Part shown: piece by piece, positions 37,296 through 61,772 of the stretch | Layout: each line of letters begins with the position of its first letter | Position numbering within the stretch: the stretch's first letter is position 1 | Virus record (IMG/VR): IMGVR_UViG_3300031857_000094 | Location: 18,569 to 82,568 of that record | From: a virus | DNA: 64,000 bases | Direction: 5' to 3' (one strand) | Program-made: the position numbers and the translations under genes | Notes under the pieces: model-generated | The model's database searches: none | Told to the model about the DNA's origin: nothing | Seen by the model: the letters and a program-made list of their open reading frames with translations, nothing else

Positions 37296-37520
37296 TTACT
37301 TACCTGCGTGTTCGGTGAGAAGTTGAGTTACGTTCTTGACTGTTGGGTCGCGAATGTCGTCGATGAACTTCATAAGCTCGTCGGCTTTCTTGATAACTTC
37401 AGCTGTGGTTGGAAATGGTTTCTGCTCACCGCCGCGTTCAGCAGCGATAAGATATTCCGCATCGCACATCGACTGTGCCATTTGAAGAACGGAAAGACGG
37501 ATATGCTTTTCTTCGGACAT
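37296..37520 (-). CDS. Small helical protein of unknown function, 74 aa
   Basis: A mostly helical polar protein (MSEEKHIRLSVLQMAQSMCDAEYLIAAE ... VIKKADELMKFIDDIRD). GAGG lies 9 bases before the ATG at 37520. It sits between the tmRNA and tRNA-Gln and would be transcribed from the tmRNA promoter. No family recognised. Confidence 0.65.
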   Translation of the reverse strand: MSEEKHIRLSVLQMAQSMCDAEYLIAAERGGEQKPFPTTAEVIKKADELMKFIDDIRDPTVKNVTQLLTEHAGK

Positions 37521-37544
37521 AGTGAATACCTCAATGTAGGAAAG

Positions 37545-37819
37545 TGGGGGGATTCTGTTTCCAAGCTCCCCCCGAGCTCATTCTTAGGCAGCTAGTGCGT
37601 AAGAGATAGGTGCATTATCGTTTGCATCTAAAACGCGCTTTTGGTCTCTTCGCATCTTTACTACGCACGTCGATCCTAGTTCACCCCCATCAAAAACAGT
37701 AGCATCCAATCCTTACAGCGATGGTTCACATTGGGCTTCCTACTGCTTATGGTGGAGGCGGCGGGTACTGCCCCCGCGTCCGAAACGTTTATTCCATACG
37801 CCTCAACGACCTTAGCATA
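37545..37819 (-). ncRNA. ssrA: Two-piece (circularly permuted) tmRNA, tag ANDNAPISYALAA
   Basis: Reading leftward, the acceptor piece comes first and ends at 37750 with TTTCGGACGCGGGGGC... and CCTCCACCA. About 60 bases later the coding piece starts at 37688 with GGGGGTG. This pairs with CGCCTCC of the acceptor piece into a 7-bp acceptor stem including a G3-U70 wobble, the alanine identity element. The resume codon GCA at 37625 begins the tag ANDNAPISYALAA, ending TAA at 37584. The piece ends in a GGGGGG...CCCCCC hairpin with AGCTTGGAAACAGAAT in the loop, as in alphaproteobacterial tmRNAs. The T-loop reads GGCAGTA rather than TTCRANY. Ends are approximate. It tags stalled nascent proteins for degradation and rescues ribosomes. 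Confidence 0.9.
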
Positions 37820-37825
37820 GTATTT

Positions 37826-37854
37826 ATTCTAGCTTGCTTTACTCTGATTGTCAA
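37826..37854 (-). promoter_or_regulatory. Sigma-70-type promoter of the tmRNA
   Basis: TTGACA (37849-37854), 17 bases, TAGAAT (37826-37831). An AATAAATA box (late-like) overlaps the -10 region. Transcription should start near 37819, just before the acceptor piece. Confidence 0.8.
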
Positions 37855-37863
37855 GAACTCATT

Positions 37864-39198
37864 TCACAAAAAATTTTCTAGGAGTTCTACGACATCTGGA
37901 AAGGTTTCTTTCCAGTCTGTACCACGAAGTTTATCTAGGGCGTCGCTTCGCGCGATGAAACTTTTTATATTTTGGGCGCAAACTTCTTCAGAGTCAGAAT
38001 TGTATGTGTTCTTAACATAGCCCAAAGTCATGGCTTTGTGTTGCAGTTTTAGATCAGATTCTTCATATGCTTTGATTATCTTGTCTTTGGCTTTGCGTGG
38101 ATACCATCTCAAATCGTAGCACTTTGGCGAGCGCAGTAATCTAAACGAAAACTTATCGAATCCAAAATTTTGGAAATGAGGAACTACTCTCATAGGAGCA
38201 TACACGTCAAATATGCCTACACAAGAAGTGATGGTACAGAACATATTAGAATGTTTCTTCAATCGAAGAATGTTTTCGTTCAGTTTTCTCCAGCTTGATG
38301 GATATCTGATTAGTTCGTATCTTTTTTCAGTATCATCCACGCTTATACCAAATCGAACTTCTTTGAAGCGATCGAGTTTCTGTAAAATCTTGTCATTGAT
38401 AACAGTTAGATTCGTGTCGTAAACCAATCGTATCTTTTCAGCCTGACCGCATGAAATTAAACGATCTAGCATTTCTTCGTGTGCTGGTTGAAGAAATGGT
38501 TCTCCGCCAGTAATGTATACATGCAACAATCTATTTTTAATTGTTTCGAACTGTTCCCACCAGATCGGAGAATCGTGCCATCGAACAAAATCGCTTTTGA
38601 GTTTGTTTCCTTCAGCGTGGATATGATATTCTTTAGGTCCAACCCAAAACGTATTCTTACCAGTCAAAGCAACATGATCAGAATACCACAGAGTAGAATA
38701 TTGCGGCTCGCATTGAATACATTTAGAATTGCACAGATTGGAAAAGCGAATATCGAGAGCTATCGGTAGATTGCTGATGGATCCATCAGAGTTCATGATT
38801 CTGCTTGCGTCTTCGAGGTTTACTCCGTTTTCTTGATCTTTCATGTGAGTAAACGTTCGACCTATGCGATAAGACAAACCGCCAATAGTTTCTGGTTCGA
38901 AGTATTCTTCCTGTTGCAGTTTTCTGTTGGCATCTTCTTTATCCCAACAGACACGACACACTGGATGTCTTTTGTCTTGGGATTGGAAAAGCCTCAGTTC
39001 TTTATGAAGATCGCTGTTAAGAGCTTGTTCAAATGTATGGGTGAGAATGTTCATCACTTCACCCGTAGATTCATCTTTACCTATTCCATGATCTTTAGTG
39101 TTATCATTTCCAGAAAAACAGCAGATCTTGAAATTACCCGAGGGATTGATTTGAATTGAAGCCCACGGAAGAGCGCAAAAAGTATTCTTAGAAAACAT
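37864..39198 (-). CDS. Radical SAM enzyme with extra N-terminal cysteines, 444 aa
   Basis: FSNLCNSKCIQC holds the radical SAM CxxxCxxC (C156, C160, C163). A second cysteine set near the N-terminus (CALPW at C8, ICC at C26-27, CRVC at C81-84) resembles SPASM/twitch auxiliary cluster sites, but placed before the barrel. ITGGEPFLQ is the GGEP motif that contacts SAM. The substrate is unknown; peptide or sugar modification is possible. Start set at 39198 (AAGGAAG upstream), overlapping the nuclease gene by 11 bases. The gene is clearly more A/T-rich than its neighbours. Confidence 0.85.
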   Translation of the reverse strand: MFSKNTFCALPWASIQINPSGNFKICCFSGNDNTKDHGIGKDESTGEVMNILTHTFEQALNSDLHKELRLFQSQDKRHPVCRVCWDKEDANRKLQQEEYFEPETIGGLSYRIGRTFTHMKDQENGVNLEDASRIMNSDGSISNLPIALDIRFSNLCNSKCIQCEPQYSTLWYSDHVALTGKNTFWVGPKEYHIHAEGNKLKSDFVRWHDSPIWWEQFETIKNRLLHVYITGGEPFLQPAHEEMLDRLISCGQAEKIRLVYDTNLTVINDKILQKLDRFKEVRFGISVDDTEKRYELIRYPSSWRKLNENILRLKKHSNMFCTITSCVGIFDVYAPMRVVPHFQNFGFDKFSFRLLRSPKCYDLRWYPRKAKDKIIKAYEESDLKLQHKAMTLGYVKNTYNSDSEEVCAQNIKSFIARSDALDKLRGTDWKETFPDVVELLENFL

Positions 39199-39883
39199 TG
39201 CTCTTGCTTCCTTGTTCTTTCCTCCACTCATACTGATCGCGAACGCGAATCAGTTGACGAACATAGTCGTTGCGCTTGCCTTCGAAGCAGTCGAACTCGC
39301 CTTCATCTGATACGATGAGAATGGCAAAGTCATGACATTCAATGCCAGTGTGTTCTTCGAACATGATAGAGTATGCAGTAGCCTGAAGGAAGTAATCTGT
39401 GATCATATCTGCAGTCTTTCTCTTACGAGAAGTCTTGAAGTCGATCACCGTTACTTTGCCATCCCACTCGCAGATTAAGTCCGCGGTCCCTGCGATTCTG
39501 AGGATGTCCGAGAACATCGGCGTTTCAGACGCATAAACAAGCTGTAAGTTTTTGTCAATACATTTCTGAACAATACGAAAACGTGCGAGTGTCGAGGGCA
39601 TGATTTTCTTGGCATCTATCTCATCTCCCAGAATGTATGATTCCATAAGATTGTGAAGTTCAGTTCCACGATTTGCAGCTTGTCTGCTAATCTTGTTAGC
39701 TTCTTCTTCACCGACACGAGCGCGCCACTCAGCGAGAGATTTTTTCTTTTCAGGCTGATCGCCGAGTAGAGTTGTGATTGATGGGTAGACGTTACCATCT
39801 GGAGTTTGATAACGTCTACCGTTTGGAGTGTTTATCTGACGGGCTCTTGGCAAGTCAATATATGGATCATGATTAAATTTCAT
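39188..39883 (-). CDS. PD-(D/E)XK exonuclease, MGME1/RecB-like, 231 aa
   Basis: NRGTELHNLMESYILG, SDILRIAGTADLICEWDGKVTVIDFKTS and YFLQATAYSIMFEEHTG give the RecB-type nuclease order: H...E, G(T)xD, then D-F-K-T and the QxxxY motif. Proteins of this type in T4-like phages of other hosts are small single-strand exonucleases for recombination or DNA processing. It stands next to PhoH, a common neighbour. Confidence 0.85.
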   Translation of the reverse strand: MKFNHDPYIDLPRARQINTPNGRRYQTPDGNVYPSITTLLGDQPEKKKSLAEWRARVGEEEANKISRQAANRGTELHNLMESYILGDEIDAKKIMPSTLARFRIVQKCIDKNLQLVYASETPMFSDILRIAGTADLICEWDGKVTVIDFKTSRKRKTADMITDYFLQATAYSIMFEEHTGIECHDFAILIVSDEGEFDCFEGKRNDYVRQLIRVRDQYEWRKEQGSKSNVF

Positions 39884-40973: not shown

Positions 40974-41657
40974 TTATTTAGTATCCTGCTGAAGTACGTC
41001 TGTGAGAGACGGGAAAATCTTTATGATTTCGTCCCATGCTAGGGATGCGATTTCACGGTGTTCTTTCTGTGTTTCGACGCCCATACGCAACTCGCAGTAG
41101 TGAATCCAGCTACGCAGCGTTCCGTTCATATACATACGGGACTGCGTAAGACCCTCAGGAAGCACAGCGCGAGCCTGTTCCTTAGCGACACCATTCTCAA
41201 TAGCCCATTTATATGCATCTTCTGCCGAGGCTTTTACACACTTCTGAACATTTTCCCATTGCATTTGTAGATCATCATCATCAGTCTCAATACTATTCTG
41301 ACGATTCTTCATATCCTGCAAACGAGCTTCGCGTGTAACAAAGCCAAGATCCTTGGTCGGATCAGCATAACGCTGTGAGAACTCTTGGAAAGAAAACGAA
41401 CGATGACGCAGAATTTGACGAGCGATATCACGGGTCGTGTCGATTTCCATGCAGATAGAAACCATTTCGAATGGCGACCAATGCTTGTGCTTGGCAAGAT
41501 ACTTCAACAGCTTGGGAGCTGTCTGGGTATTCATCTGATTGCTGGGATTACTTACACGAGCAACATAAGCAATGAACTCATCAACACCAACGATATATCC
41601 TGTAATAGGATCGCTGATTGTCGGTTTACTTACAGCTACAATTTTCACGCTTTGCAT
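40974..41657 (-). CDS. thyX: Flavin-dependent thymidylate synthase ThyX, 227 aa
   Basis: The ThyX signature RHRSFSFQEFSQRY spans residues 84-97, and ARVSNPSN and WSPFEMVSICMEI lie where expected. ThyX makes dTMP from dUMP with FAD, NADPH and methylene-folate. It supplies thymidine for a phage more A/T-rich than a typical alphaproteobacterial host. The ATG overlaps the upstream gene by 32 bases. Confidence 0.95.
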   Translation of the reverse strand: MQSVKIVAVSKPTISDPITGYIVGVDEFIAYVARVSNPSNQMNTQTAPKLLKYLAKHKHWSPFEMVSICMEIDTTRDIARQILRHRSFSFQEFSQRYADPTKDLGFVTREARLQDMKNRQNSIETDDDDLQMQWENVQKCVKASAEDAYKWAIENGVAKEQARAVLPEGLTQSRMYMNGTLRSWIHYCELRMGVETQKEHREIASLAWDEIIKIFPSLTDVLQQDTK

Positions 41658-45135: not shown

Positions 45136-45164
45136 ATTGTATCAGCGTTTCAGGTAACTGTCAA
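45136..45164 (-). promoter_or_regulatory. Sigma-70-type promoter
   Basis: TTGACA (45159-45164), 17 bases, TACAAT (45136-45141), overlapping the end of the dNMP kinase gene and driving the SWIM gene. Confidence 0.75.
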
Positions 45165-45756
45165 GAATAACATCTGCGGTGCCACACATCTGTTCGATTG
45201 TGCCATCGTTGTGAATTGCAGCATCCATTGGCTCTCTATTCCAAGCCCGTTCGGACTCGTGGATCGACGGATCATCTTTGCCAAACCAATCAGGAAGCGG
45301 ACCGCGGCGAACATGCCAAATCTTTCCGCCATTACGACGAATCATAGCAATCTCGTTGGGAAAGCGCACATCGCTGATAACGAAGTTAGGCTTCTGACCA
45401 GTCATCTCAGCAAACATCTTTTCTGTATCAAGGATGCGCTTTTCTGTAGCCAATACCCAGATGTCAGAATGGAAATGATGCCGCATGACTTCCGTTCCCA
45501 TATACTGAAGAAGATATCGCGGCGAAAAATCCTTGATGCCGAGACGCTCGCTCCACCATTCATCGATCTGCTCGCGCTCGTACCGTGATTCAGTCGTAGC
45601 CCCTTCGAGCATATCACGATCCCAACCAAAGATACACGCTGCTGCGTCCTTGAGCGTCTCAGCAAAAGACATACCAATAAAATCATGCTGACGCATAAGA
45701 TGCTCAGCCGTAGTTCCTTTACCAGAACCAATCAAACCACATAGACCAATAATCAC
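45142..45756 (-). CDS. gp1: Deoxynucleoside monophosphate kinase (T4 gp1-like), 204 aa
   Basis: The P-loop GLIGSGKGTT at the N-terminus, FAETLKDAAACIFGWDRDMLEG, YLLQYMGTEVMR and VISDVRFPNE fit the phage dNMP kinase family. It phosphorylates dNMPs, often including modified ones, which matters given the DNA-modification genes at 48-52 kb. The ATG at 45756 overlaps the 77-aa gene by 4 bases. Confidence 0.88.
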   Translation of the reverse strand: MIIGLCGLIGSGKGTTAEHLMRQHDFIGMSFAETLKDAAACIFGWDRDMLEGATTESRYEREQIDEWWSERLGIKDFSPRYLLQYMGTEVMRHHFHSDIWVLATEKRILDTEKMFAEMTGQKPNFVISDVRFPNEIAMIRRNGGKIWHVRRGPLPDWFGKDDPSIHESERAWNREPMDAAIHNDGTIEQMCGTADVILDSYLKR

Positions 45757-48670: not shown

Positions 48671-49453
48671 TTATGCGAAAAACGAATCGAGAGTGCTGCC
48701 GACTTCTTTTCTTGTATCTCTGAGTCTCAGTTCGGCATGACCAGTTGTTTCGCGGATATACATTGTGCAGAGGCCAGGATAACGATCAGCAAGAATTTGA
48801 GCTGACTCGTGGATGCGCTCGCTCGTGCGAGTAACCTGCATTCCGCCATCTTCAGTATAGTATTTAGATTTGACAGTGATATCGTCAAGACGAACAACTT
48901 TGCCGTCCTTGACGTAGTGCTGAAGCGTGCGCTCGAAGTCTTCCTTATCGTCGAGCGTAACAGTCAAGTCTTGATCGTGACGAGTGATGAGACCCCAGCA
49001 CGAACCGATGCAGTAATACAATCCAACTGCTACACGGTTCTTCATGAACATGGCGTTAGCTGCTGCATAAACGCCAAACAGATTAGCACCGTTCTTCTGA
49101 CACTCAACGAATCCACGACAGATAACATCACCTTCAAGATCAGTGACAGGAACCATAGTCTTGTCATCAATCTTCTTCATGACTTCTGACAGATCGTCAT
49201 CAAAGTTCATGACCTGAGTTCCCTCAGGATAGTATCGCTGAATGAAACGACGAATCGCACCCATACCAACCTGACCGATCACGATCTTGTATTGTTCAGG
49301 AAGTTCTTTGCGATAGGTTTCGTATTCTTCTTGATTGCCTACGAATACCGTGATCTTTTCTGCGGGGATATTATGACGCTCGAGCAGCGCGAGAGTTTTT
49401 TCACGCAGCGTTTTTGCGCGGCGATAGCTCGGGATTGCGATTACATAGTCCAT
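48671..49453 (-). CDS. TET-associated glycosyltransferase (TAGT/GREB-like), 260 aa
   Basis: MDYVIAIPSYRRAKTLREKTL, IVIGQVGMGAIRRFIQRYYPEG and the acidic NFDDDLSEV triad are the pattern of GT-A-like glycosyltransferases linked to TET/JBP enzymes in phage genomes. They add sugars to hydroxymethylated pyrimidines in DNA. ATG at 49453 has GGGAAACG upstream and overlaps galE by 53 bases. A promoter inside galE serves this gene. Together with the TET/JBP gene two genes upstream it suggests glycosylated phage DNA; biochemistry is unproven. Confidence 0.75.
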   Translation of the reverse strand: MDYVIAIPSYRRAKTLREKTLALLERHNIPAEKITVFVGNQEEYETYRKELPEQYKIVIGQVGMGAIRRFIQRYYPEGTQVMNFDDDLSEVMKKIDDKTMVPVTDLEGDVICRGFVECQKNGANLFGVYAAANAMFMKNRVAVGLYYCIGSCWGLITRHDQDLTVTLDDKEDFERTLQHYVKDGKVVRLDDITVKSKYYTEDGGMQVTRTSERIHESAQILADRYPGLCTMYIRETTGHAELRLRDTRKEVGSTLDSFFA

Positions 49454-50387
49454 TCGTTTCCCATTTCCATGAATCAAGGATAATCTGTTCTAGATTTCTT
49501 TCGGGCTTCCAGCCAAGAATCTTTTCAGCTTTTTCTGCGTTCGCGACAAGCGAAGGTGGATCACCAATTCGACGTATATCATATTGGAAATTGATCGACT
49601 TGTCAAGAACTCTTTCAGTCGTGTTAATAAGCTCTAGCATCGACGTGCCGTTGCCAGATCCAAGATTGAATGGCTCAGCACATCTGTGGCTTTCAAGATA
49701 CTGCAAAGCCAAAACGTGGGCGTGGGCTACGTCTTGAACATGCAGATAGTCGCGAACACAAGTTCCATCTTTCGTTGAGTAGTCATTACCAAAAACCTTG
49801 AATGGCGTATTGTTAATGATAGACTTCAACAGAATCGGAACAGCGTGTGTTGGCGTCTTTGAGTTGTAGCCGTGATTCTTACCTGAGCCAGCGACGTTGA
49901 AATAGCGCAAAGAAACGCTGCTGATTCCATGAGCATGATATACTGCTTCCAGCATCTGCTCTGACCACAGCTTCGTTTGTCCATAAGGATTGAGCGGAGT
50001 AGTTGTGCGATTTTCGTCGATCTTCGATGCAGAAGCATCATAGACTGCTGCGCTGCTGCTGAACACAATCTTGACGTCAGTTTCCTTAGCGTATTCAAGC
50101 AGACGCAACATCGAACACATATTGTTCTGATAGTATTTCAGCGGATCTGCTACGCTTTCGGGAACGACATGGCTTGCTGCCATGTGAATGATAGCGTCGA
50201 ACTTTTTGTAGTATGAATGAAGCCCGAACTTGTTGAGATCAAAGTTTAAAACTTCGACATCGAGCTTCTTAGTCCAATCATTGATTACACGGTCAAAAAC
50301 CGTAACCGTGTAACCGTAGTAGAGGAGTTCATCGACAACAGCACTGCCGATGAACCCACTTCCTCCAGTCACTAGAACATGTTTCAT
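49401..50387 (-). CDS. galE: UDP-glucose 4-epimerase-like (GalE), 328 aa
   Basis: N-terminal GGSGFIGS NAD site, FSSSAAVYD and YGQTK (catalytic Y-x3-K), RYFNVAGSGKNHGY and CVRDYLHVQDVAHAH (in pieces) define an extended SDR sugar-nucleotide epimerase, most like GalE. It probably makes UDP-galactose, a donor that the neighbouring glycosyltransferase could use. It overlaps the TET/JBP gene upstream by 4 bases and TAGT downstream by 53. Confidence 0.9.
   Translation of the reverse strand: MKHVLVTGGSGFIGSAVVDELLYYGYTVTVFDRVINDWTKKLDVEVLNFDLNKFGLHSYYKKFDAIIHMAASHVVPESVADPLKYYQNNMCSMLRLLEYAKETDVKIVFSSSAAVYDASASKIDENRTTTPLNPYGQTKLWSEQMLEAVYHAHGISSVSLRYFNVAGSGKNHGYNSKTPTHAVPILLKSIINNTPFKVFGNDYSTKDGTCVRDYLHVQDVAHAHVLALQYLESHRCAEPFNLGSGNGTSMLELINTTERVLDKSINFQYDIRRIGDPPSLVANAEKAEKILGWKPERNLEQIILDSWKWETNGLCNRNPELSPRKNAA
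49578..49606 (-). promoter_or_regulatory. Sigma-70-type promoter inside galE
   Basis: TTGACA (49601-49606), 17 bases, TATGAT (49578-49583), fully inside galE coding sequence, about 125 bases ahead of the TAGT start. Confidence 0.75.
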
Positions 50388-51793
50388 GCAAAGAAATCTT
50401 CAAGAGAGGTTTGATTAGTACCTTTACCAATTTTATTTAGAACTTCTTCTGCTTCATCTGTGAGACCATTGTTTCCAAGATACTCACCCCATTCTTCCGT
50501 ATCCCACATTCCTGGCGATACTCCGTTCCAGTTTTCTTGCCAGAGCGGATGTTCTTTATTGTTTCTGCGCATATAGACGAAGTTCTTACGAGCTTCTTCA
50601 TACTTCTTAGAGCCACACTCAAGCATTGACTCACGGAAATACATCACGACTGACATACGCTCGAACCCTTCTTCGTAGTCGAACGCAGGAGAGTTGCTGT
50701 GAATACGATGAGCGTTCATCATAATCATGTCGCCAGCACGAATATCAGCAGCTACCCGAAACTCAGGGAAGCAAAGATAAAAGCCGTCATAATGCTTGCC
50801 ATTGTCAAGGACGAGAAGATTACTAAAGCCTCGAGGGTTTTCATGTGACTCCCATGATTCGCATAGATCGCCAACGTCACGATGCGCTGCTGTGCGGAAG
50901 TCGCGATTGATTGTTAGAGTTGTATATGGTGTATTACCAATCTGCCAGTCTTTACCTAGCTTCTGCATTGCTTCCATCTGACCAGCAAAGCGAATCGGAA
51001 TGTTTTCTTGGAACACGCGCGATGCTTCTTCGAACAGAGGCAGAGCTGATTCATACAGCTCGTGATGACTTGCGCTCCAGCCCGTTTCGCGACAGAATGG
51101 AATGCGTGGATAACGATCCATGAATCCACCAACGCCAGAACGAACGCCGTTCGCATAAGTTGTATCTGAAATCATGTCATTCAGAATATGATCTGCGGCG
51201 AGCTTACGATCCTTAGACGTTTTATCCTTGACTGAGTCGTACCAATCGTCGAACACGAAGTCCTTCGACTTGTTTACAATCCAAATCGCACCAGCACCAA
51301 TTTCACCTTTGTTCTTGTCTGCTCCAGATCCACGACCTTGCAATGGCTTATCTGGAGTTGTGCTGTAGATTTCATGCAGCATATCTTCGCCAGTAATAGA
51401 AAGCGGCGAACCCTTAGCCATATACTGAAGAACAGCTTTTTCGCGCTGCGTCACCCAGCGACGAGAACCTTCGCCGTCTGGTAACTTCTGATAAGCTGTG
51501 TCGCGTTCGATACCAGCAGCAAGCCCACGATTGTCAGACATGATCGCACCAGAACGAAGAGCAGTATAAGCTGCGTCTGTCATTTCCTTCGAGAACACAC
51601 CTTTACGGAACTTGCAGAGCAAATTCTTTTCAGAATGCGTTTCGCCGTTTGCGATTTGCAAAGGAGTCAGTGGTTCATAAACATCAGTATCTTCAGTCAG
51701 CACTAGATCATAGCAATCATGATCTAGGAACTTACCTAGCATATGATCCATCTTGTTAAGATTAGAGTGTTCGAGATAGATTTTCTTTACCAT
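50384..51793 (-). CDS. TET/JBP-family 2OG-Fe(II) dioxygenase, 469 aa
   Basis: The iron and 2-oxoglutarate residues are visible in family context: TINRDFRTAAHRDVGD (H304, D306), FSNLLVLDNG, GFYLCFPEFRVAADIRAGDMIMM, AHRIHSN (H362 or H365) and RMSVVMYFRE (R379). This layout is that of TET/JBP enzymes in phages, which hydroxylate 5-methylcytosine or thymine in DNA. Residues 1-230 are a separate region without recognised motif. AGGAGGAGAGGCCT precedes the ATG. Its operon (GalE, TAGT) points to glycosylated hydroxymethyl-pyrimidines. No matching DNA methyltransferase is in the window. Confidence 0.82.
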   Translation of the reverse strand: MVKKIYLEHSNLNKMDHMLGKFLDHDCYDLVLTEDTDVYEPLTPLQIANGETHSEKNLLCKFRKGVFSKEMTDAAYTALRSGAIMSDNRGLAAGIERDTAYQKLPDGEGSRRWVTQREKAVLQYMAKGSPLSITGEDMLHEIYSTTPDKPLQGRGSGADKNKGEIGAGAIWIVNKSKDFVFDDWYDSVKDKTSKDRKLAADHILNDMISDTTYANGVRSGVGGFMDRYPRIPFCRETGWSASHHELYESALPLFEEASRVFQENIPIRFAGQMEAMQKLGKDWQIGNTPYTTLTINRDFRTAAHRDVGDLCESWESHENPRGFSNLLVLDNGKHYDGFYLCFPEFRVAADIRAGDMIMMNAHRIHSNSPAFDYEEGFERMSVVMYFRESMLECGSKKYEEARKNFVYMRRNNKEHPLWQENWNGVSPGMWDTEEWGEYLGNNGLTDEAEEVLNKIGKGTNQTSLEDFFA

Positions 51794-51820
51794 AGGCCTC
51801 TCCTCCTAAAACTGTTATCT

Positions 51821-52399
51821 CTATGTATGCTTCAGGAGATTTTCATATGTGTTGAAATAGACGTTTTCACCAGCAATCTTAGTCACATTTTGGATACTAG
51901 GGAAAATAAAAATGAAATCAACTTCTGGATGCTTCCGCACAAGCCACTGAAGATAGTTCACACGACCAGGATTGTCTCCCGCGCTCGCGCGAGTATCAGC
52001 GCCATAGTTGTCTGTTCCATCGTAGATGTTGGAAAGAAGTTGATTGCCATCTTGAATCAAAAAGTCAAAACCAAGACAGATAATCTGATTGTATTCCATC
52101 TTGATCGCTTCACGCATAGCATTCATGCCAGCATTACTACGAGGACGACCAATGTTACATTCAGCAGGTTCCCAGCGTTCATCAATCGGTGGTACGATGA
52201 AACGCTTTGAAGGGAAGTCGCTGCCTTCTATCTCGGTAATGATACCATCATCAATACTAACGAGGAAATCAGGAAAAGACCTGTCAGGGTAATCACGATA
52301 AAGCGCATTGCAACCAAACACCGTTCCATATGGTTTCAGTTTAGTAAGATCGAATCCCTTGCGACTCGTACCATTACCGATGATAAAAGCTGTGTTCAT
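51821..52399 (-). CDS. GNG-motif protein, possible sugar-transfer enzyme, 192 aa
   Basis: AFIIGNGTSRKGFDLTKL, VFGCNALYRDYPD, DFLVSIDDGIITEI and QIICLGFDFLI resemble DUF115/Rossmann-type proteins seen in T4-like phages and in flagellin glycosylation loci. A nucleotide or sugar ligand is likely. It is directly upstream of the TET/JBP gene (27 bases), suggesting it belongs to the cassette. Function not proven. Confidence 0.6.
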   Translation of the reverse strand: MNTAFIIGNGTSRKGFDLTKLKPYGTVFGCNALYRDYPDRSFPDFLVSIDDGIITEIEGSDFPSKRFIVPPIDERWEPAECNIGRPRSNAGMNAMREAIKMEYNQIICLGFDFLIQDGNQLLSNIYDGTDNYGADTRASAGDNPGRVNYLQWLVRKHPEVDFIFIFPSIQNVTKIAGENVYFNTYENLLKHT

Positions 52400-52980
52400 G
52401 CTACTTCTTTCTTAGTAGAACCTTTCGGACGACCGCGCCCACGCTTGACAGGAACTTGAGTTTCATCATACTCGAGAAACGTTGAGTTGTCAAGTTCAAC
52501 CTCCTGTACAATAGGAGCTGGCTGTTCGATTGGCGTTGCAACCTTACGACCCCAGGCTTCCCACAGATTAGGGAATGCTTCAGCAATCGCTTCGGGCATA
52601 ATCTTGATCTGACGATTTTTCATACGAAGGAGCAGCTTAGCATCACGCGGATCAATGGACTCAAGCACCTGAATGAACAACTGTTCGCGCTTGAGCTGCT
52701 TGACTTGAGCACCTTCAGGGCTATCGACGAAATAGATCAGCTTCTTGCATTCAATGTAGAAACGTCCTTCCTGATCAGCTGCATCAAACAGAGGGCGATA
52801 CGGCGGATCACCATCAGGAAGCAACCACTTCACGCCTGGATCCATGCCATAACCTAGAACAGCCTTAAGAGCATAAGAGCTATGCAGCTTTAGGAACTCA
52901 GCTTGCTTTTCTGCAGTCGTTTGTGCTTCAATCTTTGAAACAATATTAGCCATACATTTGTTTGTATCAAGGGCCATCAT
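52396..52980 (-). CDS. AT-hook-bearing conserved protein, 194 aa
   Basis: A helical middle (LKLHSSYALKAVLGYGMDPGVKWLLPDGDPPYRP, in pieces, and FIQVLESIDPRDAKLLLRMKNR) matches a T4-like phage protein (DUF6433-like). The C-terminus KRGRGRPKGSTKKEVA is an AT-hook that binds the minor groove. ATG at 52980 has GGAGATTA upstream. The protein probably binds DNA; its role is unknown. Confidence 0.72.
   Translation of the reverse strand: MMALDTNKCMANIVSKIEAQTTAEKQAEFLKLHSSYALKAVLGYGMDPGVKWLLPDGDPPYRPLFDAADQEGRFYIECKKLIYFVDSPEGAQVKQLKREQLFIQVLESIDPRDAKLLLRMKNRQIKIMPEAIAEAFPNLWEAWGRKVATPIEQPAPIVQEVELDNSTFLEYDETQVPVKRGRGRPKGSTKKEVA
52465..52493 (-). promoter_or_regulatory. Sigma-70-type promoter of the modification cassette
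   Basis: TTGACA (52488-52493), 17 bases, TATGAT (52465-52470), inside the 3' end of the AT-hook gene and 65 bases upstream of the GNG-motif gene. Confidence 0.78.
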
Positions 52981-53275
52981 TAATCTCCACTGGTTCGTAT
53001 GCAATTACATTTATAAACTGTTTCTTCTGTTCGTCATCCCACGCAGCGAGATAATCGTTTTCCTGATCGAACAACTTGAGATATTCTTCTTCACTGATTT
53101 CGCGATGATCGATGATTGCAGTAGGATCAAGATGCTTCTGACTGAACTCCTTGAACGTAGTATCGTTTTCGCGCCACACAACTTCATCGAGCGCATCAAT
53201 GACATTGTTTTCGACACGCACGACATAACGAATGCGGAACGAAGAAAGAACATCGACCATTACGAGCTTAGACAT
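52967..53275 (-). CDS. Small acidic conserved protein, 102 aa
   Basis: MSKLVMVDVLSSFRIRYVVRVENNVIDALDEVV then a DUF-like acidic segment. It overlaps the AT-hook gene by 14 bases and mazG by 1. Function unknown. Confidence 0.62.
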   Translation of the reverse strand: MSKLVMVDVLSSFRIRYVVRVENNVIDALDEVVWRENDTTFKEFSQKHLDPTAIIDHREISEEEYLKLFDQENDYLAAWDDEQKKQFINVIAYEPVEINDGP

Positions 53276-53733
53276 TAGATATCGCCTTCTTTACGATTCT
53301 CAGAGTAATATGCGTTGAACTTGCCGCCAGGATAACGAGCTTCGAGTTTAGCAACGTTTTCTGCTACGACTTCATTGGGATCAAGATCAAGAGCGTTGCA
53401 AGCATTGATCCAATACCAAATGACGTCGCCAAGTTCTTTCTTAAGATGCTGACGAGTTTCTTCGGTGTATGGCTTACCCTGAAACAAAACTTTCTTAACG
53501 ATTTCCTGCGCTTCGCCAGCTTCACTTGTCATACCAATGATAGCTGTAAGAAGTAGCGATGCATTGAGCGTTGTGCTATTGAAATGAATTTCCCTCAGAC
53601 GATCGATGAATGCTTCGACTTCACGACTTTCTTTACTCGTGACAGCCATAACAAACGAGGCATACTTTTCTAGATCAATCATAACCTTGTCATACTCCCT
53701 ATTGTGATAGTCTAAATCTGGAACGGTGATAAT
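53275..53733 (-). CDS. mazG: MazG-like nucleotide pyrophosphohydrolase, 152 aa
   Basis: TSEAGEAQEIVKKVLFQGK (ExxE), KKELGDVIWYWINACNALDLD (ExxD) and KLEARYPGGKF match the all-alpha NTP pyrophosphatase fold. It may hydrolyse dNTPs or ppGpp-like nucleotides. The start at 53733 has GGAGGTCGTCG upstream; the frame to 53769 is not needed. Confidence 0.88.
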   Translation of the reverse strand: MITVPDLDYHNREYDKVMIDLEKYASFVMAVTSKESREVEAFIDRLREIHFNSTTLNASLLLTAIIGMTSEAGEAQEIVKKVLFQGKPYTEETRQHLKKELGDVIWYWINACNALDLDPNEVVAENVAKLEARYPGGKFNAYYSENRKEGDI

Positions 53734-53933
53734 CATCGACGACCTCCATTGTAAACAATGGCGTAACACTCATACTCTTTCTTACCATCATCCAAGCATT
53801 GTTTGTAATGAAATGTTGCACGTTCTGTTTGTGATGCAACAATCATATAACCCAATAGCATGATTACACCAATTATGGCAATCATTGTCTTACCAAAGTG
53901 AAGATCAATCCATGATTCGCGGAAATAAGTCAT
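53733..53933 (-). CDS. Small membrane protein, 66 aa
   Basis: MTYFRESWIDLHFGKTMIAIIGVIMLLGYMIVAS carries one membrane helix followed by a Cys-containing tail (QCLDDGKKEYECYAIVY). ATG at 53933 has GGAGCGTG upstream and overlaps the next gene (TGATG). Function unknown. Confidence 0.65.
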   Translation of the reverse strand: MTYFRESWIDLHFGKTMIAIIGVIMLLGYMIVASQTERATFHYKQCLDDGKKEYECYAIVYNGGRR

Positions 53934-56523: not shown

Positions 56524-56552
56524 ATCATAGCACATTGGCTGTTAATTGTCAA
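56524..56552 (-). promoter_or_regulatory. Sigma-70-type promoter of the 378-aa gene
   Basis: TTGACA (56547-56552), 17 bases, TATGAT (56524-56529). Its TGA is the stop codon of the glycosyltransferase gene. Confidence 0.85.
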
Positions 56553-57550
56553 GGCTTGTTTGCCATAGAAGCTAGGAAATCCCGCCACTGACTAGCCCGA
56601 ACGTCCCAATTATAGAACGAGTCGAAGTAGGCTTTTTGAAACTTGAGTCGTTCTTGATTGAATGGCGCTCTGTATTCCTTAATGACCATAGCCAATATGC
56701 CAGCGAACACATTGGCGTGCTTGTTATTGTTTTCTGTCCAGCCATACTGAACTGCGAAGTTGGCGCATGTTTCTGGAAGCGCAGCCAATGTTGGGCAAAT
56801 AACATTGCAGCCAGCGCTCATAGCCTCGATGACTGAGATACCAGAAGTTTCTGGCCAGATGCTGGGATATGTATAGATGTGCGCTTTCTTGAGAGCTTCG
56901 CGAATAACAGAGTTTGGCTGCCATCCATGATAAGTCATTTTGCCGTTGCGTTTGATACGTTCAAACAGTTCCTTGTATGGTTCATCGCGCTGTGGCCATC
57001 CGTAGATACCAAACGATGAATAGACATCAAGATGGAAGTCGAGCCCCTTATCAGCTAGGAACTCTACGACTGGAACAAGAAGCTCGAGTCCACGATGCGG
57101 AGTTGTATGATAGATCAGATTGATCGTGCCTTCAGGCTTTTCGTGAGGCTCGATAGGAACGATCGCGTTCTGAAGAACGATACCCTTGTCGTATGGTACT
57201 CCAAGTCCGAGATTGTAAGTAGACTGCTGATAGTGTGAAACGAATACGAGTTTCTCGAATCGGTCAAGACTCTTGGCGTCCTTCAGATGTTGTGACTCTG
57301 GATCGTCGAAAGTATCGTGTAGCCACAGAATGTTTTTCTTTGTCTTACTGATGCTATCTTCGCGCACGCGCGAGCAGATGATATTGAACTGATCAGTCAG
57401 CTCGTTTGGTAGTCGTGCCATCAAGCCTTCATACATCTGCTCAGTTCCACCCTTGGAACCAAGATGTGCATATGTACCATTCTTAGCTGGCTCAAGATCC
57501 TTAGCCTTAGTCGCGCTTTCTTTGAGTCCAGAGATATTCAATTTAGTCAT
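56549..57550 (-). CDS. GT4-type glycosyltransferase, 333 aa
   Basis: KGGTEQMYEGL, ILWLHDTFDDPES, LIYHTTPHRGLELLVPVV, KAHIYTYPSIWPETSGISVIEAMSAGCNVI (in pieces) follow the GT-B/GT4 fold, including the donor-binding PxxxxxxE...E motif. It could sugar-coat phage DNA, surface glycans or a virion protein; the acceptor is unknown. Confidence 0.85.
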   Translation of the reverse strand: MTKLNISGLKESATKAKDLEPAKNGTYAHLGSKGGTEQMYEGLMARLPNELTDQFNIICSRVREDSISKTKKNILWLHDTFDDPESQHLKDAKSLDRFEKLVFVSHYQQSTYNLGLGVPYDKGIVLQNAIVPIEPHEKPEGTINLIYHTTPHRGLELLVPVVEFLADKGLDFHLDVYSSFGIYGWPQRDEPYKELFERIKRNGKMTYHGWQPNSVIREALKKAHIYTYPSIWPETSGISVIEAMSAGCNVICPTLAALPETCANFAVQYGWTENNNKHANVFAGILAMVIKEYRAPFNQERLKFQKAYFDSFYNWDVRASQWRDFLASMANKP

Positions 57551-58213: not shown

Positions 58214-58242
58214 ATTATATGCTATGAGGGGTCGATTGTCAA
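58214..58242 (-). promoter_or_regulatory. Sigma-70-type promoter
   Basis: TTGACA (58237-58242), 17 bases, TATAAT (58214-58219). The TGA in TTGACA is the stop codon of the 2OG oxygenase gene. Confidence 0.88.
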
Positions 58243-58829
58243 GTATATTCGACCCAGCCAGTGACGATATATTTCGTATTGCTGATTGGCGGATTGCCAC
58301 GATGCGTATGAGTGAAGCCAGCAGGCCACAGAATGAATCTGCCCGTTTTGGCTTTAACTCTCTTAGGATAATACAGGAATTCCGTTTCTCCGCCTTCTTC
58401 AACATCATTTAGATATAGAATGAATGTGGCCACGCGACGCATGTTCTGTGGCGTATCATCTTCGTTATGCCAAACATGATATCCTCCGCCAATTTCAGTT
58501 TTCTGAATTTTGGCTAAACGAACAGTCATATTTGCCACTTGATTCAATACGCCATACTGTTCTGCGTATGCTGGATATACTGTATTCCAGAAACGTTCAG
58601 TCATCATACGGAAAGGTGCGATGTCTGAAATATCGAGTTCCATTCCAGACAAGAAATCAGAAAAGTAAAACTGATCATCTTTCTTTACGGTGGAGTTCGT
58701 TCCTTCTTTCTGTCGACTGATAGTAAATCCAGCTCGTTCCATTCTATTGAATGAGTCGATGAACTGCTGACACTCCTGTGCGGAAAACAAGTTATCGTAT
58801 TGAAGAATGAAATTTTCTACTGTAATCAT
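58239..58829 (-). CDS. 2OG-Fe(II) oxygenase, prolyl-4-hydroxylase-like, 196 aa
   Basis: GGGYHVWHNEDD holds the metal motif HxE (H121, E123). ATFILYLNDVEEGGETEF, PAGFTHTHRGNPP and KYIVTGWV give the second histidine (H174/H176) and the 2OG-binding basic residue. Such P4H-like enzymes are frequent in T4-like phages. The target (protein or nucleic acid) is unknown. Confidence 0.85.
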   Translation of the reverse strand: MITVENFILQYDNLFSAQECQQFIDSFNRMERAGFTISRQKEGTNSTVKKDDQFYFSDFLSGMELDISDIAPFRMMTERFWNTVYPAYAEQYGVLNQVANMTVRLAKIQKTEIGGGYHVWHNEDDTPQNMRRVATFILYLNDVEEGGETEFLYYPKRVKAKTGRFILWPAGFTHTHRGNPPISNTKYIVTGWVEYT

Positions 58830-59302
58830 GCGCTTAGAATCTCCTTTAATCTATCGGCAGCATAAGATGCGGCAAACGCATCAGGCTTAACACGAGGAGT
58901 TACATTACACACACCTCGAACGTATCCGATCGCTTGCTGCACAACGCAACTACTACCATGAATTATATCTGGATTGATATCGAGATGAACTTCTGCGTGT
59001 CGATCTCCTATCGCTTCAGCAAGATCCATGTAAAGTTGTGAAACCTTATACACTTCGTTCATCAGACGATATGCTGGACGATCCATTCGTTGATCGAAGT
59101 CACGTTCAGTTTCCATACGCCCGAACACTTTGCAACCGCGCGATCCTTCATAATGAATCACGACAGCCAACGTGTAGTCAGCATACCACAGATCGTCTTT
59201 TCCGCAGTATCGTTCGCTATCTGCACCAATGTAAATGCAGGTGTTTTCAGAAGTGTTACGAATGAATTCACGCACTTCATCGATGTTCATATTCTTAATC
59301 AT
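58826..59302 (-). CDS. DUF458/YkuK-like RNase-H-fold protein, 158 aa
   Basis: IYIGADSERYCGKDDLWYADYTLAVVIHY, RDFDQRMDRPAYRLMNEVYKV and EVHLDINPDIIHGSS with VKPDAFAAS match DUF458. The family has an RNase-H-like fold with conserved acids (D, E, D) and unknown substrate. It overlaps the 2OG oxygenase by 4 bases. Confidence 0.82.
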   Translation of the reverse strand: MIKNMNIDEVREFIRNTSENTCIYIGADSERYCGKDDLWYADYTLAVVIHYEGSRGCKVFGRMETERDFDQRMDRPAYRLMNEVYKVSQLYMDLAEAIGDRHAEVHLDINPDIIHGSSCVVQQAIGYVRGVCNVTPRVKPDAFAASYAADRLKEILSA

Positions 59303-59303
59303 A

Positions 59304-60821
59304 TTATTCGCTCAACATTTTCTGCTTATATGTATGTATCCTAGATTCGTAGTTTTTTCTTAATGCACCAAAAACCGCTCCACTCTTATTCTGATCTGCT
59401 AATCTTGCCAGCTTTACAGCGTTTTCTACTTTCAATCCTACGTTGTGCAAGAACGGTAGCGAAAACGCAGCTATCGTTGAGTTCGTTTTCATATTGAATG
59501 TATAGGCCAACTTCATAAACTCATCAGATTTTCCCCAAGGACTAGTCCAGGTGCCAGGATCATTTCCTGATTTTTCATAAACGCTGAATGGATTATTACG
59601 ACTCGCGTTAATTTCATTCTTGGTTTCATTACCTTCAAATAGGATCAACGAAGTGAACGTGTAGTGATCAATGTAATGTTTTCCTTCCTTAGAATTCAAC
59701 CATTCGTATGTTCTATACAAGTCCTCTGGTGTTTCGTACGGAAGTCCCGAAATGAACGAAGCAGTTGTAACGCAGTTATCGCCAATCACATCTCTGAATA
59801 TATCAAAAGATTTCATCAGCTTATCTTTGTCTGTCATCTTACCGATGCTAGGCCCAGCTTCCTTCTTTAAGGACTCGATACCGAACGTAGCTCCAGCTAT
59901 GCCTGAATCAAGCAGTAGCTGAGCTTGTTCTTTCCTCTTAATTGTATCAAGCCTAACGTATCCAGTCCATCGAATATCTACGCCAGTTTTTTCTCTGATC
60001 TTAATTAAGAACTTCAACTTTTCTTCATAGTCGTTCATGATGTTGTCAGTCAGTAGGTACATTCTTGTTTTGAACTTTTCATAGTTCGTTAGAAGTTCAC
60101 GCTCGAAGCTCTCGTATGAGCGCATGTACTCAGTTTTCTTTTTACCCAAAGCGGCATAGTTGCAAAACTGACAACTGAATATGCATCCAGCAGCAACTTC
60201 AGTAGAGAGACTTTCGTCATCCATGATGTGATCTTCAAGTATAGGTGTAGATGCACAATCACTGAAGTCTACGATGTTAGAAGTATATGCTATCTTAGAA
60301 CCACGAATTTCGGTGAATTCGATAGTTTGATTTTTAGCCAACTTGTCTATGACGTCGATGTTATTACCTAAAACGTAATAGTCAACATACTTATCGAGAA
60401 CGTCAATACCCCAAGCATATCTTTTTGATCTTTTGAATTTAGATTCAATGATTTCCCATCCACCAAGCAGAATAGGAATCTGTAATCTTTTACATAACGA
60501 AAACGTTTTTATGAAAAATTGGAAAGTATCTAATCCCCAAGCATGCCCTTCTTCTTCTTGATCGGGAAGTTCTGATACGTTCTTTCGAAAAGTCGTATTG
60601 ATGAAAGACGTGCTAAAACACGCAATAGACTGTTCGCCTTGCGTGAAGTTTTCTATAATCTGTTTGATTTCTTCTACTGAAAACGAAAGACAGTTATGAA
60701 TTTGTTTGACTTCATAACCAACTGATCGAAGCATATATGAAAGTCTAAGATTAGAAGCAGATTTCATGAAGTTGAAACCTGTTCCATTGTTTTCAGAAAA
60801 GATAATGATCTTACGAATCAT
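59304..60821 (-). CDS. Radical SAM protein with B12-binding-like N-domain, 505 aa
   Basis: TEVAAGCIFSCQFCNY holds C213, C217 and C220, the radical SAM cluster. The first 180 residues have the Rossmann-like layout of cobalamin-binding domains (LRLSYMLRSVGYEV, PILLGGWEI) but no DxHxxG. FGIESLKKEAG and FISGLPYETPEDLYRTYEWL are typical of the B12-dependent radical SAM class. The substrate is unknown. It overlaps the NMO-like gene by 11 bases, so the two probably act on one compound. A/T-rich, likely acquired. Confidence 0.85.
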   Translation of the reverse strand: MIRKIIIFSENNGTGFNFMKSASNLRLSYMLRSVGYEVKQIHNCLSFSVEEIKQIIENFTQGEQSIACFSTSFINTTFRKNVSELPDQEEEGHAWGLDTFQFFIKTFSLCKRLQIPILLGGWEIIESKFKRSKRYAWGIDVLDKYVDYYVLGNNIDVIDKLAKNQTIEFTEIRGSKIAYTSNIVDFSDCASTPILEDHIMDDESLSTEVAAGCIFSCQFCNYAALGKKKTEYMRSYESFERELLTNYEKFKTRMYLLTDNIMNDYEEKLKFLIKIREKTGVDIRWTGYVRLDTIKRKEQAQLLLDSGIAGATFGIESLKKEAGPSIGKMTDKDKLMKSFDIFRDVIGDNCVTTASFISGLPYETPEDLYRTYEWLNSKEGKHYIDHYTFTSLILFEGNETKNEINASRNNPFSVYEKSGNDPGTWTSPWGKSDEFMKLAYTFNMKTNSTIAAFSLPFLHNVGLKVENAVKLARLADQNKSGAVFGALRKNYESRIHTYKQKMLSE

Positions 60822-61683
60822 CAGTCGTCAATCTACGAACGATTTCTTGCACTGGTAATAACTCATTTGTAAAATCGATTCCAGTTCCAGCAAATATCAC
60901 ACCTCTTTCTAGATTTCCAGACACTCCCTCATAAAGTCTTTTGTCGATAGTTCTTCTTCTTTTCTGTTCTGGTTCAATATCTCGATAGATTAATCCCTGT
61001 AATCCAGAAAGTTTCATTCTAGAAAGATCGTTAGAAGTTTTTTCTAACATCCTTTTCTTTGTTGAGATATCTATCGAGCTTTCTTCACTCATTGCAAAAA
61101 GAGTGCCTATCGAAACTGCAAGAGCGCCCGAATTCATATAATAATCTATTTGAGCTTTGGAAGCTATTCCGCCAGATGGTATCAACTTATCTGCTGAAAT
61201 GAATTGTTTTTGAATGTCAAAAAAATCTTTAGTTTTAAGATTATGACTATAGCCTGCAGACTCAGTTCCGTTAAGAACTAGTGCATCAAATCCAAATGTT
61301 TTATTATTAACAATCGCAACTTTCCTCATAATGAAACAATCTAGTTCGCGTAATCGTTCAATAAAGTTTCTATCATTGTTGAGATCAGTATGTATCAACT
61401 CACAATGACTGATCTTATACTTTTCAATCAACTTTAATATGAATGTTTCTAAGAGCGAACTATCAGGAATAGCTACTCCTAAAATCAAACGGCAGTGACC
61501 CATTTCTTGAGTGAACTTATCTAATTCTGATGGTAGCTTTTTGAGCTGAGATTCAAATGGAGCTGTAGTTAAACTTGGTACGATACCAGCTTTGGCACAA
61601 GCAATAGCTAAATTGATATCACTTACGCAAGTCATAGCTGAACACGTAATAGGATGTTCATATCCAAAAAAATCTCTATACAT
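60811..61683 (-). CDS. Nitronate monooxygenase-like flavoenzyme, 290 aa
   Basis: HPITCSAMTCVSDINLAIACAKAGIVPSLTTAPFESQ, KLIPSGGIASKAQIDYYMNSGALAVSIGTLFAMSEESS in pieces, fit the FMN TIM-barrel 2-nitropropane dioxygenase family. ATG at 61683 with AGGATC upstream. Because members oxidise diverse small molecules or double bonds, its partner radical SAM gene suggests a dedicated biosynthetic step, not nitroalkane detoxification. Confidence 0.8.
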   Translation of the reverse strand: MYRDFFGYEHPITCSAMTCVSDINLAIACAKAGIVPSLTTAPFESQLKKLPSELDKFTQEMGHCRLILGVAIPDSSLLETFILKLIEKYKISHCELIHTDLNNDRNFIERLRELDCFIMRKVAIVNNKTFGFDALVLNGTESAGYSHNLKTKDFFDIQKQFISADKLIPSGGIASKAQIDYYMNSGALAVSIGTLFAMSEESSIDISTKKRMLEKTSNDLSRMKLSGLQGLIYRDIEPEQKRRRTIDKRLYEGVSGNLERGVIFAGTGIDFTNELLPVQEIVRRLTTDDS

Positions 61684-61698
61684 AATGATCCTATTAAA

Positions 61699-61772
61699 TG
61701 GCACCAGTGGAAGGAGTCGAACCCTCGCCTGCGGTTTTGGAGACCGCCGTGCTACCGTAACACTTCACTGAT
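61699..61772 (-). tRNA. tRNA-Trp (anticodon CCA)
   Basis: Acceptor ATCAGTG/CACTGGT, anticodon stem GCGGT/ACCGC with loop CTCCAAA, T-loop TTCGACT, encoded CCA. Anticodon CCA. It lies between the barrel-like gene and the NMO gene, downstream of a promoter at 61815-61843. Confidence 0.93.

Follow-up and report, generated by a model that had tools for sequence, protein, structure and literature searches.

A 64,000-nucleotide stretch of phage DNA (the window; bases 18569-82568 of the linear 82,568-base virus record IMGVR_UViG_3300031857_000094) carries adjoining minus-strand genes for a TET/JBP 2-oxoglutarate (2OG)-Fe(II) dioxygenase, a GalE epimerase and a TAGT glycosyltransferase, and we are confident that this locus is a DNA-hypermodification cassette. 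With a good deal less certainty, the genomic context indicates that thymine is probably the base on which the dioxygenase acts. An initial annotation, made from the DNA letters alone, had proposed such a TET-TAGT cassette; family models, fold, the neighbourhoods in relatives and shared clamp-like tails all support it, and the four adjoining open reading frames (ORFs) that it grouped together, namely these three and an upstream GNG-motif protein, were each recovered in place on the minus strand. The elements of the cassette are as follows.

48671..49453, minus strand: TAGT glycosyltransferase, 260 amino acids, DDD at the expected GT-A metal site (PF20691; ATG and DDD kept in relatives)
48674..48694, minus strand: TLDSFFA, C-terminal tail of the TAGT, a sliding-clamp-binding-like peptide (relatives' DNA polymerases share the tail type)
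49401..50387, minus strand: GalE, UDP-glucose 4-epimerase family, 328 amino acids (TIGR01179 over its cut-off)
49453..49464, minus strand: GalE/TAGT junction with a second TAGT-like gene deleted (blastn blocks)
50384..51793, minus strand: TET/JBP 2OG-Fe(II) dioxygenase, 469 amino acids (PF12851, TET2 profile match, Foldseek, invariant residues)
50387..50407, minus strand: SLEDFFA, C-terminal tail of the TET, a sliding-clamp-binding-like peptide (relatives' DNA polymerases share the tail type)

Enzymes of the cassette and their C-terminal tails

The dioxygenase ORF matches PF12851 (Tet_JBP) with an E value of 2.8e-13 (49.8 bits against a curated cut-off of 34.9) and PHROG 24024 with 2.8e-101. 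A TET-family profile picks up human TET2 (E 2.5e-5), and the alignment takes in both regions of the metal site; phmmer searches of the PDB with the single TET and TAGT sequences gave no match. Each of the 80 TETs compared has N296, H304, D306, H365 and R379. Because H362 deviates in two of these 80 and H365 in none, H365, which aligns with the distal His of TET2, is the likely metal ligand; of the active site first proposed (H304xD306, H362/365, R379), all but H362 holds. The ORF thus carries the HxD...H metal triad and the distal Arg for 2-oxoglutarate that define the family (H304, D306, H365, R379). The AlphaFold2 (AF2) model is modest, with a predicted local distance difference test score (pLDDT) of 67 overall and below 50 in the HxD loop, and its 22 best PDB matches by Foldseek are all TET-family proteins (CcTet with E 4.9e-8, NgTET1, TET2), which assigns the modelled ORF to the double-stranded beta-helix fold of the TET family. 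Structure prediction had been named as a check on whether the HxD...H site belongs to the dioxygenase core, and it comes out in favour of a TET, though the HxD loop is poorly modelled.

The epimerase gene and the end of the TET gene share 4 bases, and the epimerase scores 317 bits against TIGR01179 galE (cut-off 262), in agreement with its early reading as an epimerase for sugar nucleotides. Galactose, which had been suggested as the sugar on this ground, is a guess, because GalE is one of several exchangeable sugar modules. The TAGT-like glycosyltransferase likewise stands: the ORF matches PF20691 (E 9.1e-14, 52.3 bits against a cut-off of 27.5) and PHROG 842, the family of beta-glucosyl-hydroxymethylcytosine alpha-glucosyltransferase (6.8e-14). 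By sequence it is a member of the PF20691 family, with sugar transfer to a DNA base as its predicted activity, for which its tail and gene neighbourhood give indirect support. Its start is corrected to the likely ATG at 49453, conserved in relatives as is the DDD metal motif (DxD type), and not the TTG at 49477. Two related loci (L007, L026) carry a second TAGT-like gene at the GalE/TAGT junction, and the window and a further locus, L017, share its clean deletion in blastn blocks.

The clamp-like tails on both the TET and the TAGT are a new observation. We searched for them as [LI]..[FYM][FYL] at the extreme C-terminus. In G001, a relative of 157,580 bases, four of 178 ORFs fit, namely DNA polymerase (SLEDFFS), TET (TLEDYFA), a glycosyltransferase of another cassette type, type B (TLDSFFE), and one short unrelated minus-strand ORF. 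The phage DLP6 has the tail on polymerase (TLDSFFA), TET (TLGDFFV) and one unrelated ORF, its TAGT tail LSSFFN being located separately. Phage C48C1 has it on polymerase (TLEDFFG), a DPPY adenine-methyltransferase-like protein (TLDAFFG), TET (SLEEFFV) and two others. Counted by hand, the tail occurs in 12 of 18 polymerase, TET and TAGT-type genes and in 11 of 1251 other ORFs (Fisher p 7e-19, which is indicative only, since related genes do not count as independent cases and the tails had been seen before the pattern was picked). The C-termini of T4 gp43, gp55 and gp33 bind the clamp gp45 and are exchangeable (PMC2988020, PMC3012046), and the T4 alpha-glucosyltransferase co-purifies with gp45 (PMC13216743). 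Because their tails are shared with DNA polymerases, TET and TAGT would each act on DNA close to the fork, with the sliding clamp probably as their tether. As a separate observation, the DPPY adenine-methyltransferase-like gene of C48C1 (OQ984149.1, 33480-34364), which has the clamp-like tail, lies directly 3' of the DNA polymerase gene.

Substrate of the dioxygenase

Members of the near clade almost always keep the order MazG-DUF6433-GNG-TET, and it is the genes downstream of it that vary. Type A cassettes contain GalE, a second TAGT-like enzyme (missing in the window and L017) and TAGT; type B cassettes contain a sugar nucleotidyltransferase/kinase, a HAD protein and a TAGT-like enzyme close to PHROG 842; type C cassettes contain a protein of 257-269 amino acids, an amino acid:DNA transferase (ADDT; PF18724, E 1.3e-20) and a P-loop kinase (PF18751, E 5e-12). 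Across the wider TET subfamily, 396 stretches matched and 78 loci were retained; about 20 of these loci have the transferase cluster and about 20 the kinase cluster, frequently accompanied by a glutamine-amidotransferase-like gene, and a GT4 enzyme occurs at other loci. The ADDT label switches at least 10 times on the TET tree; PF18724 is absent from the 82.6 kb record and present in orthologous loci and in the Caulobacter phage Cr30, whose genome also has a TET and a TAGT-like gene and whose laboratory host is C. crescentus. In phages M6, ViI and phiW-14, kinases and alkylamine transferases of this pathway act on 5-hydroxymethyldeoxyuridine (5hmdU; PMC6449724). The simplest account would be a single TET product common to all cassettes, 5-hydroxymethyluracil (hmU), the specificity of the kinase and transferase being predicted.

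Phage TET systems based on 5-methylcytosine (5mC) encode an ordinary cytosine C5-methyltransferase with the TET. The initial annotation had found none in the window, and this holds for the window and for the whole 82.6 kb record. The record, however, is by comparison with G001 only about half a genome: the two are collinear in reversed orientation. The record's genes descend along G001 from about 33 kb to position 1, pass over the ends of the G001 sequence and continue from 157.6 kb to about 106 kb, which leaves about 73 kb of the G001 layout unmatched. For this reason we rejected the lack of a C5-methyltransferase in the record as stand-alone evidence. Profile searches found no PF00145 protein in DLP6, Cr30, S-CBWM1 and C48C1, nor in 21 of 22 further TET records, including one of 165.6 kb (G028). 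Because many of these 22 are short fragments, the weight rests on seven TET genomes of 139-168 kb: five lack any PF00145 protein, and two (G001, G012) have a single one, of the CmoX type. An ordinary C5-methyltransferase was found together with the TET neither in the 82.6 kb record, which covers about half of its genome, nor in the five large relatives, and complete relatives hold no recognisable 5mC source.

The single G001 homologue (50950-52089) lies within the stretch without counterpart in the 82.6 kb record, far from the TET gene. Its best PDB match is SpCmoX (8YF3, E 9e-104; HaeIII 1e-19), and it has SPPC and, in motif X, an Arg at the position of HhaI Asn304 that is common to all its homologues of at least 57% identity. 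A CmoA homologue overlaps the end of the gene (TIGR00740, E 6e-23, below the curated cut-off; the pair, locus L029, spans G001:50950-52769), and an Asn-synthase-like CmoY candidate lies at 68321-69130. G012 (139 kb) has TET together with a CmoX that bears SPPC and the Arg, and an adjoining CmoA. According to PMC12783734, this Arg is the CmoX signature and wild-type CmoX uses carboxy-S-adenosylmethionine, not S-adenosylmethionine, so the G001 and G012 homologue would make carboxymethylcytosine and not 5mC. With CmoX as best solved relative, Arg in motif X and CmoA adjoining, we rejected the G001 enzyme as the missing 5mC source; a carboxymethylcytosine system in the same phage as a TET is probable for G001, and the missing half of the window's phage genome probably holds a homologue of this CmoX type. 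Of the two options left initially, a methyltransferase elsewhere or a thymine substrate, the evidence leans to the latter. A related arrangement occurs in G016 (155 kb), where two tandem CmoX-like genes with the diagnostic Arg (locus L061, 3965-6312) stand beside CmoA and a PP-loop ligase-like gene; no TET was found in the G016 record.

The PF00145 search does detect C5-methyltransferases elsewhere: all 10 marine contigs tested among the relatives of the CmoX query gave a match, and in many a TET gene directly follows. These C5-methyltransferase-linked TETs form a separate clade with a support of 100/100. Together with the alternation of the cassette with ADDT and kinase, enzymes of the hmU pathway, this separation favours a path from thymine to hmU and on to glycosyl-hmU. 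The marine homologues (L066-L088) have Leu (GLMV) at the position of the ordinary Asn or the CmoX Arg, and many are directly followed by a short TET. Their methyl donor or product may be unusual.

PF00303, the family of the dCMP and dUMP hydroxymethylases, is absent from all genomes tested except Cr30, whose 327-amino-acid copy has thymidylate-synthase motifs when read by eye. We also considered D309, which we take to be equivalent to the base-contacting position of NgTET1 D234 and TET2 N1387, as a guide to base specificity, and rejected it, as the residue is common to this clade and the C5-methyltransferase-linked TETs and the AF2 HxD loop is too loose.

Proposed pathway and competing explanations

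The explanation that we favour, with moderate confidence, is that the cassette acts on the phage's own DNA once this has been synthesised, through thymine hydroxylation, glycosylation, clamp tethering and protection. ThyX and the deoxynucleoside monophosphate kinase would help to supply ordinary dTTP, so that thymine enters the DNA. The TET/JBP enzyme, using Fe(II), O2 and 2-oxoglutarate, would then hydroxylate the thymine 5-methyl group to give hmU, and the TAGT would transfer a sugar from a nucleotide-sugar to the new hydroxyl, yielding a base J-like glycosyl-hydroxymethyluracil, with GalE shaping the nucleotide-sugar pool. The C-terminal peptides would bind the phage sliding clamp and keep both enzymes near the fork, so that fresh DNA is modified behind the polymerase. 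The modified DNA would be shielded from host nucleases. DLP6 DNA is listed as restriction resistant in the table of a 2021 review (PMC8228603). The families, catalytic residues, gene order, tails and lack of a recognisable 5mC source in complete relatives are direct observations; thymine as substrate, the sugar, clamp binding and protection are what we infer.

Several points weigh against this explanation. The record covers only about half the genome, and a host methyltransferase could supply 5mC. Burke et al. reportedly found in 2021 that the phage TETs tested act on 5mC. D309, on its sequence distribution, does not discriminate the substrate base, and the kinase and ADDT homologues of relatives might accept hydroxymethylcytosine (hmC). 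The tail pattern was chosen post hoc, and its strict form is absent from Cr30, S-CBWM1 and some type B TETs. Finally, the TAGT-family member of T2/T6 acts on glucosylated 5-hydroxymethylcytosine (5hmC; PMC13216743).

This T2/T6 enzyme, the PHROG 842 match of the window's TAGT (6.8e-14), the standing of TETs as enzymes best known for 5mC and the marine phages in which a C5-methyltransferase directly adjoins the TET all fit the classical phage route, in which TET turns 5mC into 5hmC for glycosylation by TAGT and the methyl group comes from the host or an unrecognised phage enzyme. We nevertheless regard this route as unlikely: five large TET genomes lack a PF00145 protein and two have CmoX only, the C5-methyltransferase-linked TETs are a clade apart, freshly replicated phage DNA would carry little host-derived 5mC, and the swapped cassettes consist of 5hmdU-pathway enzymes. 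The presence of CmoX and CmoA with TET in G001 and G012 raises another route, in which TET hydroxylates the carboxymethyl carbon of CmoX/CmoA-made 5-carboxymethylcytosine and TAGT glycosylates that hydroxyl. There is chemical precedent, as AlkBH8 hydroxylates the carboxymethyl carbon of 5-methoxycarbonylmethyluridine (mcm5U) in tRNA. Yet the five large TET genomes lack CmoX, G016 has CmoX and CmoA without a TET, the CmoY candidate of G001 could itself use the carboxyl group, and CmoX is distant from TET in G001, which makes this route highly improbable.

GalE and TAGT might instead alter surface or capsule polysaccharide and lie beside TET by chance. This idea, the most improbable of those weighed, draws on the frequency of GalE, nucleotidyltransferase and glycosyltransferase genes in phage surface-polysaccharide islands (PMC7824862), but it leaves aside that TAGT, like its type B counterpart, has the tail type of DNA polymerase at its C-terminus, that the TAGT family includes a known DNA glucosyltransferase (PMC13216743), and that TAGT-type genes lie directly 3' of TET at many loci.

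Genomic setting and relation to known systems

By its T4-type genes (RNase H, gp32 and PhoH), the source is a T4-like phage. A permuted transfer-messenger RNA (tmRNA) gene of alphaproteobacterial type at 37493-37858 or, more narrowly delimited, 37543-37858 on the minus strand (Rfam RF01849, E 4.9e-32, and also RF04321), with a tag predicted by ARAGORN as ANDNAPISYALAA and an adjoining tRNA-Gln gene, suggests an alphaproteobacterial host. The neighbours of the cassette are listed here.

40974..41657, minus strand: ThyX thymidylate synthase, which would supply dTMP (TIGR02170, E 1.2e-43)
45142..45756, minus strand: deoxynucleoside monophosphate kinase (PF21448, E 6.1e-17)
51821..52399, minus strand: GNG-motif protein, 192 amino acids, constant backbone upstream of TET (PHROG 30607)
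52396..53004, minus strand: DUF6433 protein, constant neighbour (PF20025, E 6.5e-20)
53275..53769, minus strand: MazG-like pyrophosphohydrolase, constant neighbour (PF03819, E 9.8e-11)
56549..57550, minus strand: GT4-type glycosyltransferase, a possible further partner (PF00534, E 9.4e-11)

Family matches thus bear out the nearby kinase, ThyX, MazG and second glycosyltransferase that had been read from the letters. Of nine other records tested for ThyX, five have it, as does the window's phage. The place of the GNG protein is as described, but its membership of the cassette is weaker than had been claimed, since it accompanies the MazG-DUF6433-TET backbone whichever cassette follows. It matches PHROG 30607, a family of unknown function, and no Pfam family; it weakly resembles GT42 sialyltransferases (E 0.11), and a fold search returned nothing below 0.001. 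Elsewhere in the window, a second 2OG-Fe(II) oxygenase (PF13640), a radical SAM protein and a nitronate-monooxygenase-like protein cluster upstream of the cassette (58239-61704, minus strand), and a radical SAM/SPASM protein gene lies at 37864-39231 (minus strand).

The cassette is a variant of the phage TET-TAGT systems that Iyer et al. reportedly predicted in 2013, with the same enzyme pair adjoining; it differs in that complete relatives lack an ordinary C5-methyltransferase, the cassette alternates with a 5hmdU-type kinase and ADDT, and both enzymes have clamp-like tails. The proposed two steps, hmU in DNA and then a sugar, are those of the base J pathway of kinetoplastids (JBP1/JBP2 and the J glucosyltransferase), whereas here a PF20691 TAGT is paired with GalE in an operon-like phage locus with clamp-like tails, and thymine is the presumed substrate. 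In M6, ViI and phiW-14, whose type of ADDT (PF18724) and P-loop kinase genes adjoin orthologous TETs in relatives, hmU arises at the nucleotide level, through a dUMP hydroxymethylase; none was found here, where TET is the candidate source and TAGT and GalE take the place of those enzymes. The T-even alpha- and beta-glucosyltransferases and the T2/T6 TAGT likewise place sugar on a hydroxymethylpyrimidine in DNA, as predicted here, but T-even phages make hmC as the hydroxymethyldeoxycytidine (dHMC) nucleotide with a PF00303 enzyme, a family absent here. Of the CmoA-CmoX-CmoY system, G001 has CmoX, CmoA and an Asn-synthase-like gene and G012 has CmoX and CmoA; in both it coexists with TET, a combination that the parts of PMC12783734 consulted do not mention. 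CmoA and CmoX were not found in the 82.6 kb record, which covers the other half of the genome layout. Glucosylated 5hmdU was unreported in phages as of 2019 (PMC6449724), and our searches of titles and abstracts, with most subscription papers lying outside them, showed no later report of glycosyl-hydroxymethyluracil in phages.

Extending this to the family, we tentatively propose that in a widespread family of such T4-like phages a clamp-tethered TET makes hmU from thymine after replication, to be finished by interchangeable modules (glycosylation, or kinase and amino acid transfer), and that G001 and G012 may also carboxymethylate cytosine, so that both pyrimidines would be hypermodified; these two genomes hint that one phage may modify both C, through CmoX, and T, through TET. 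Base J-type DNA has so far been described in kinetoplastids and their relatives. If the proposed pathway is true, bacteriophages would make it as well, and TET/JBP enzymes would provide a second, post-replicative route to hydroxymethyluracil for hypermodification, bringing together base J chemistry in phages and replication-coupled hypermodification by TET. Cr30, DLP6, C48C1 and S-CBWM1 are complete named genomes with the same enzyme, which opens the question to liquid chromatography-mass spectrometry. The tail type common to these proteins points to a way in which phages could link DNA modification with their replication machinery, and it may serve as a sequence marker for DNA-modifying enzymes among unannotated phage glycosyltransferases.

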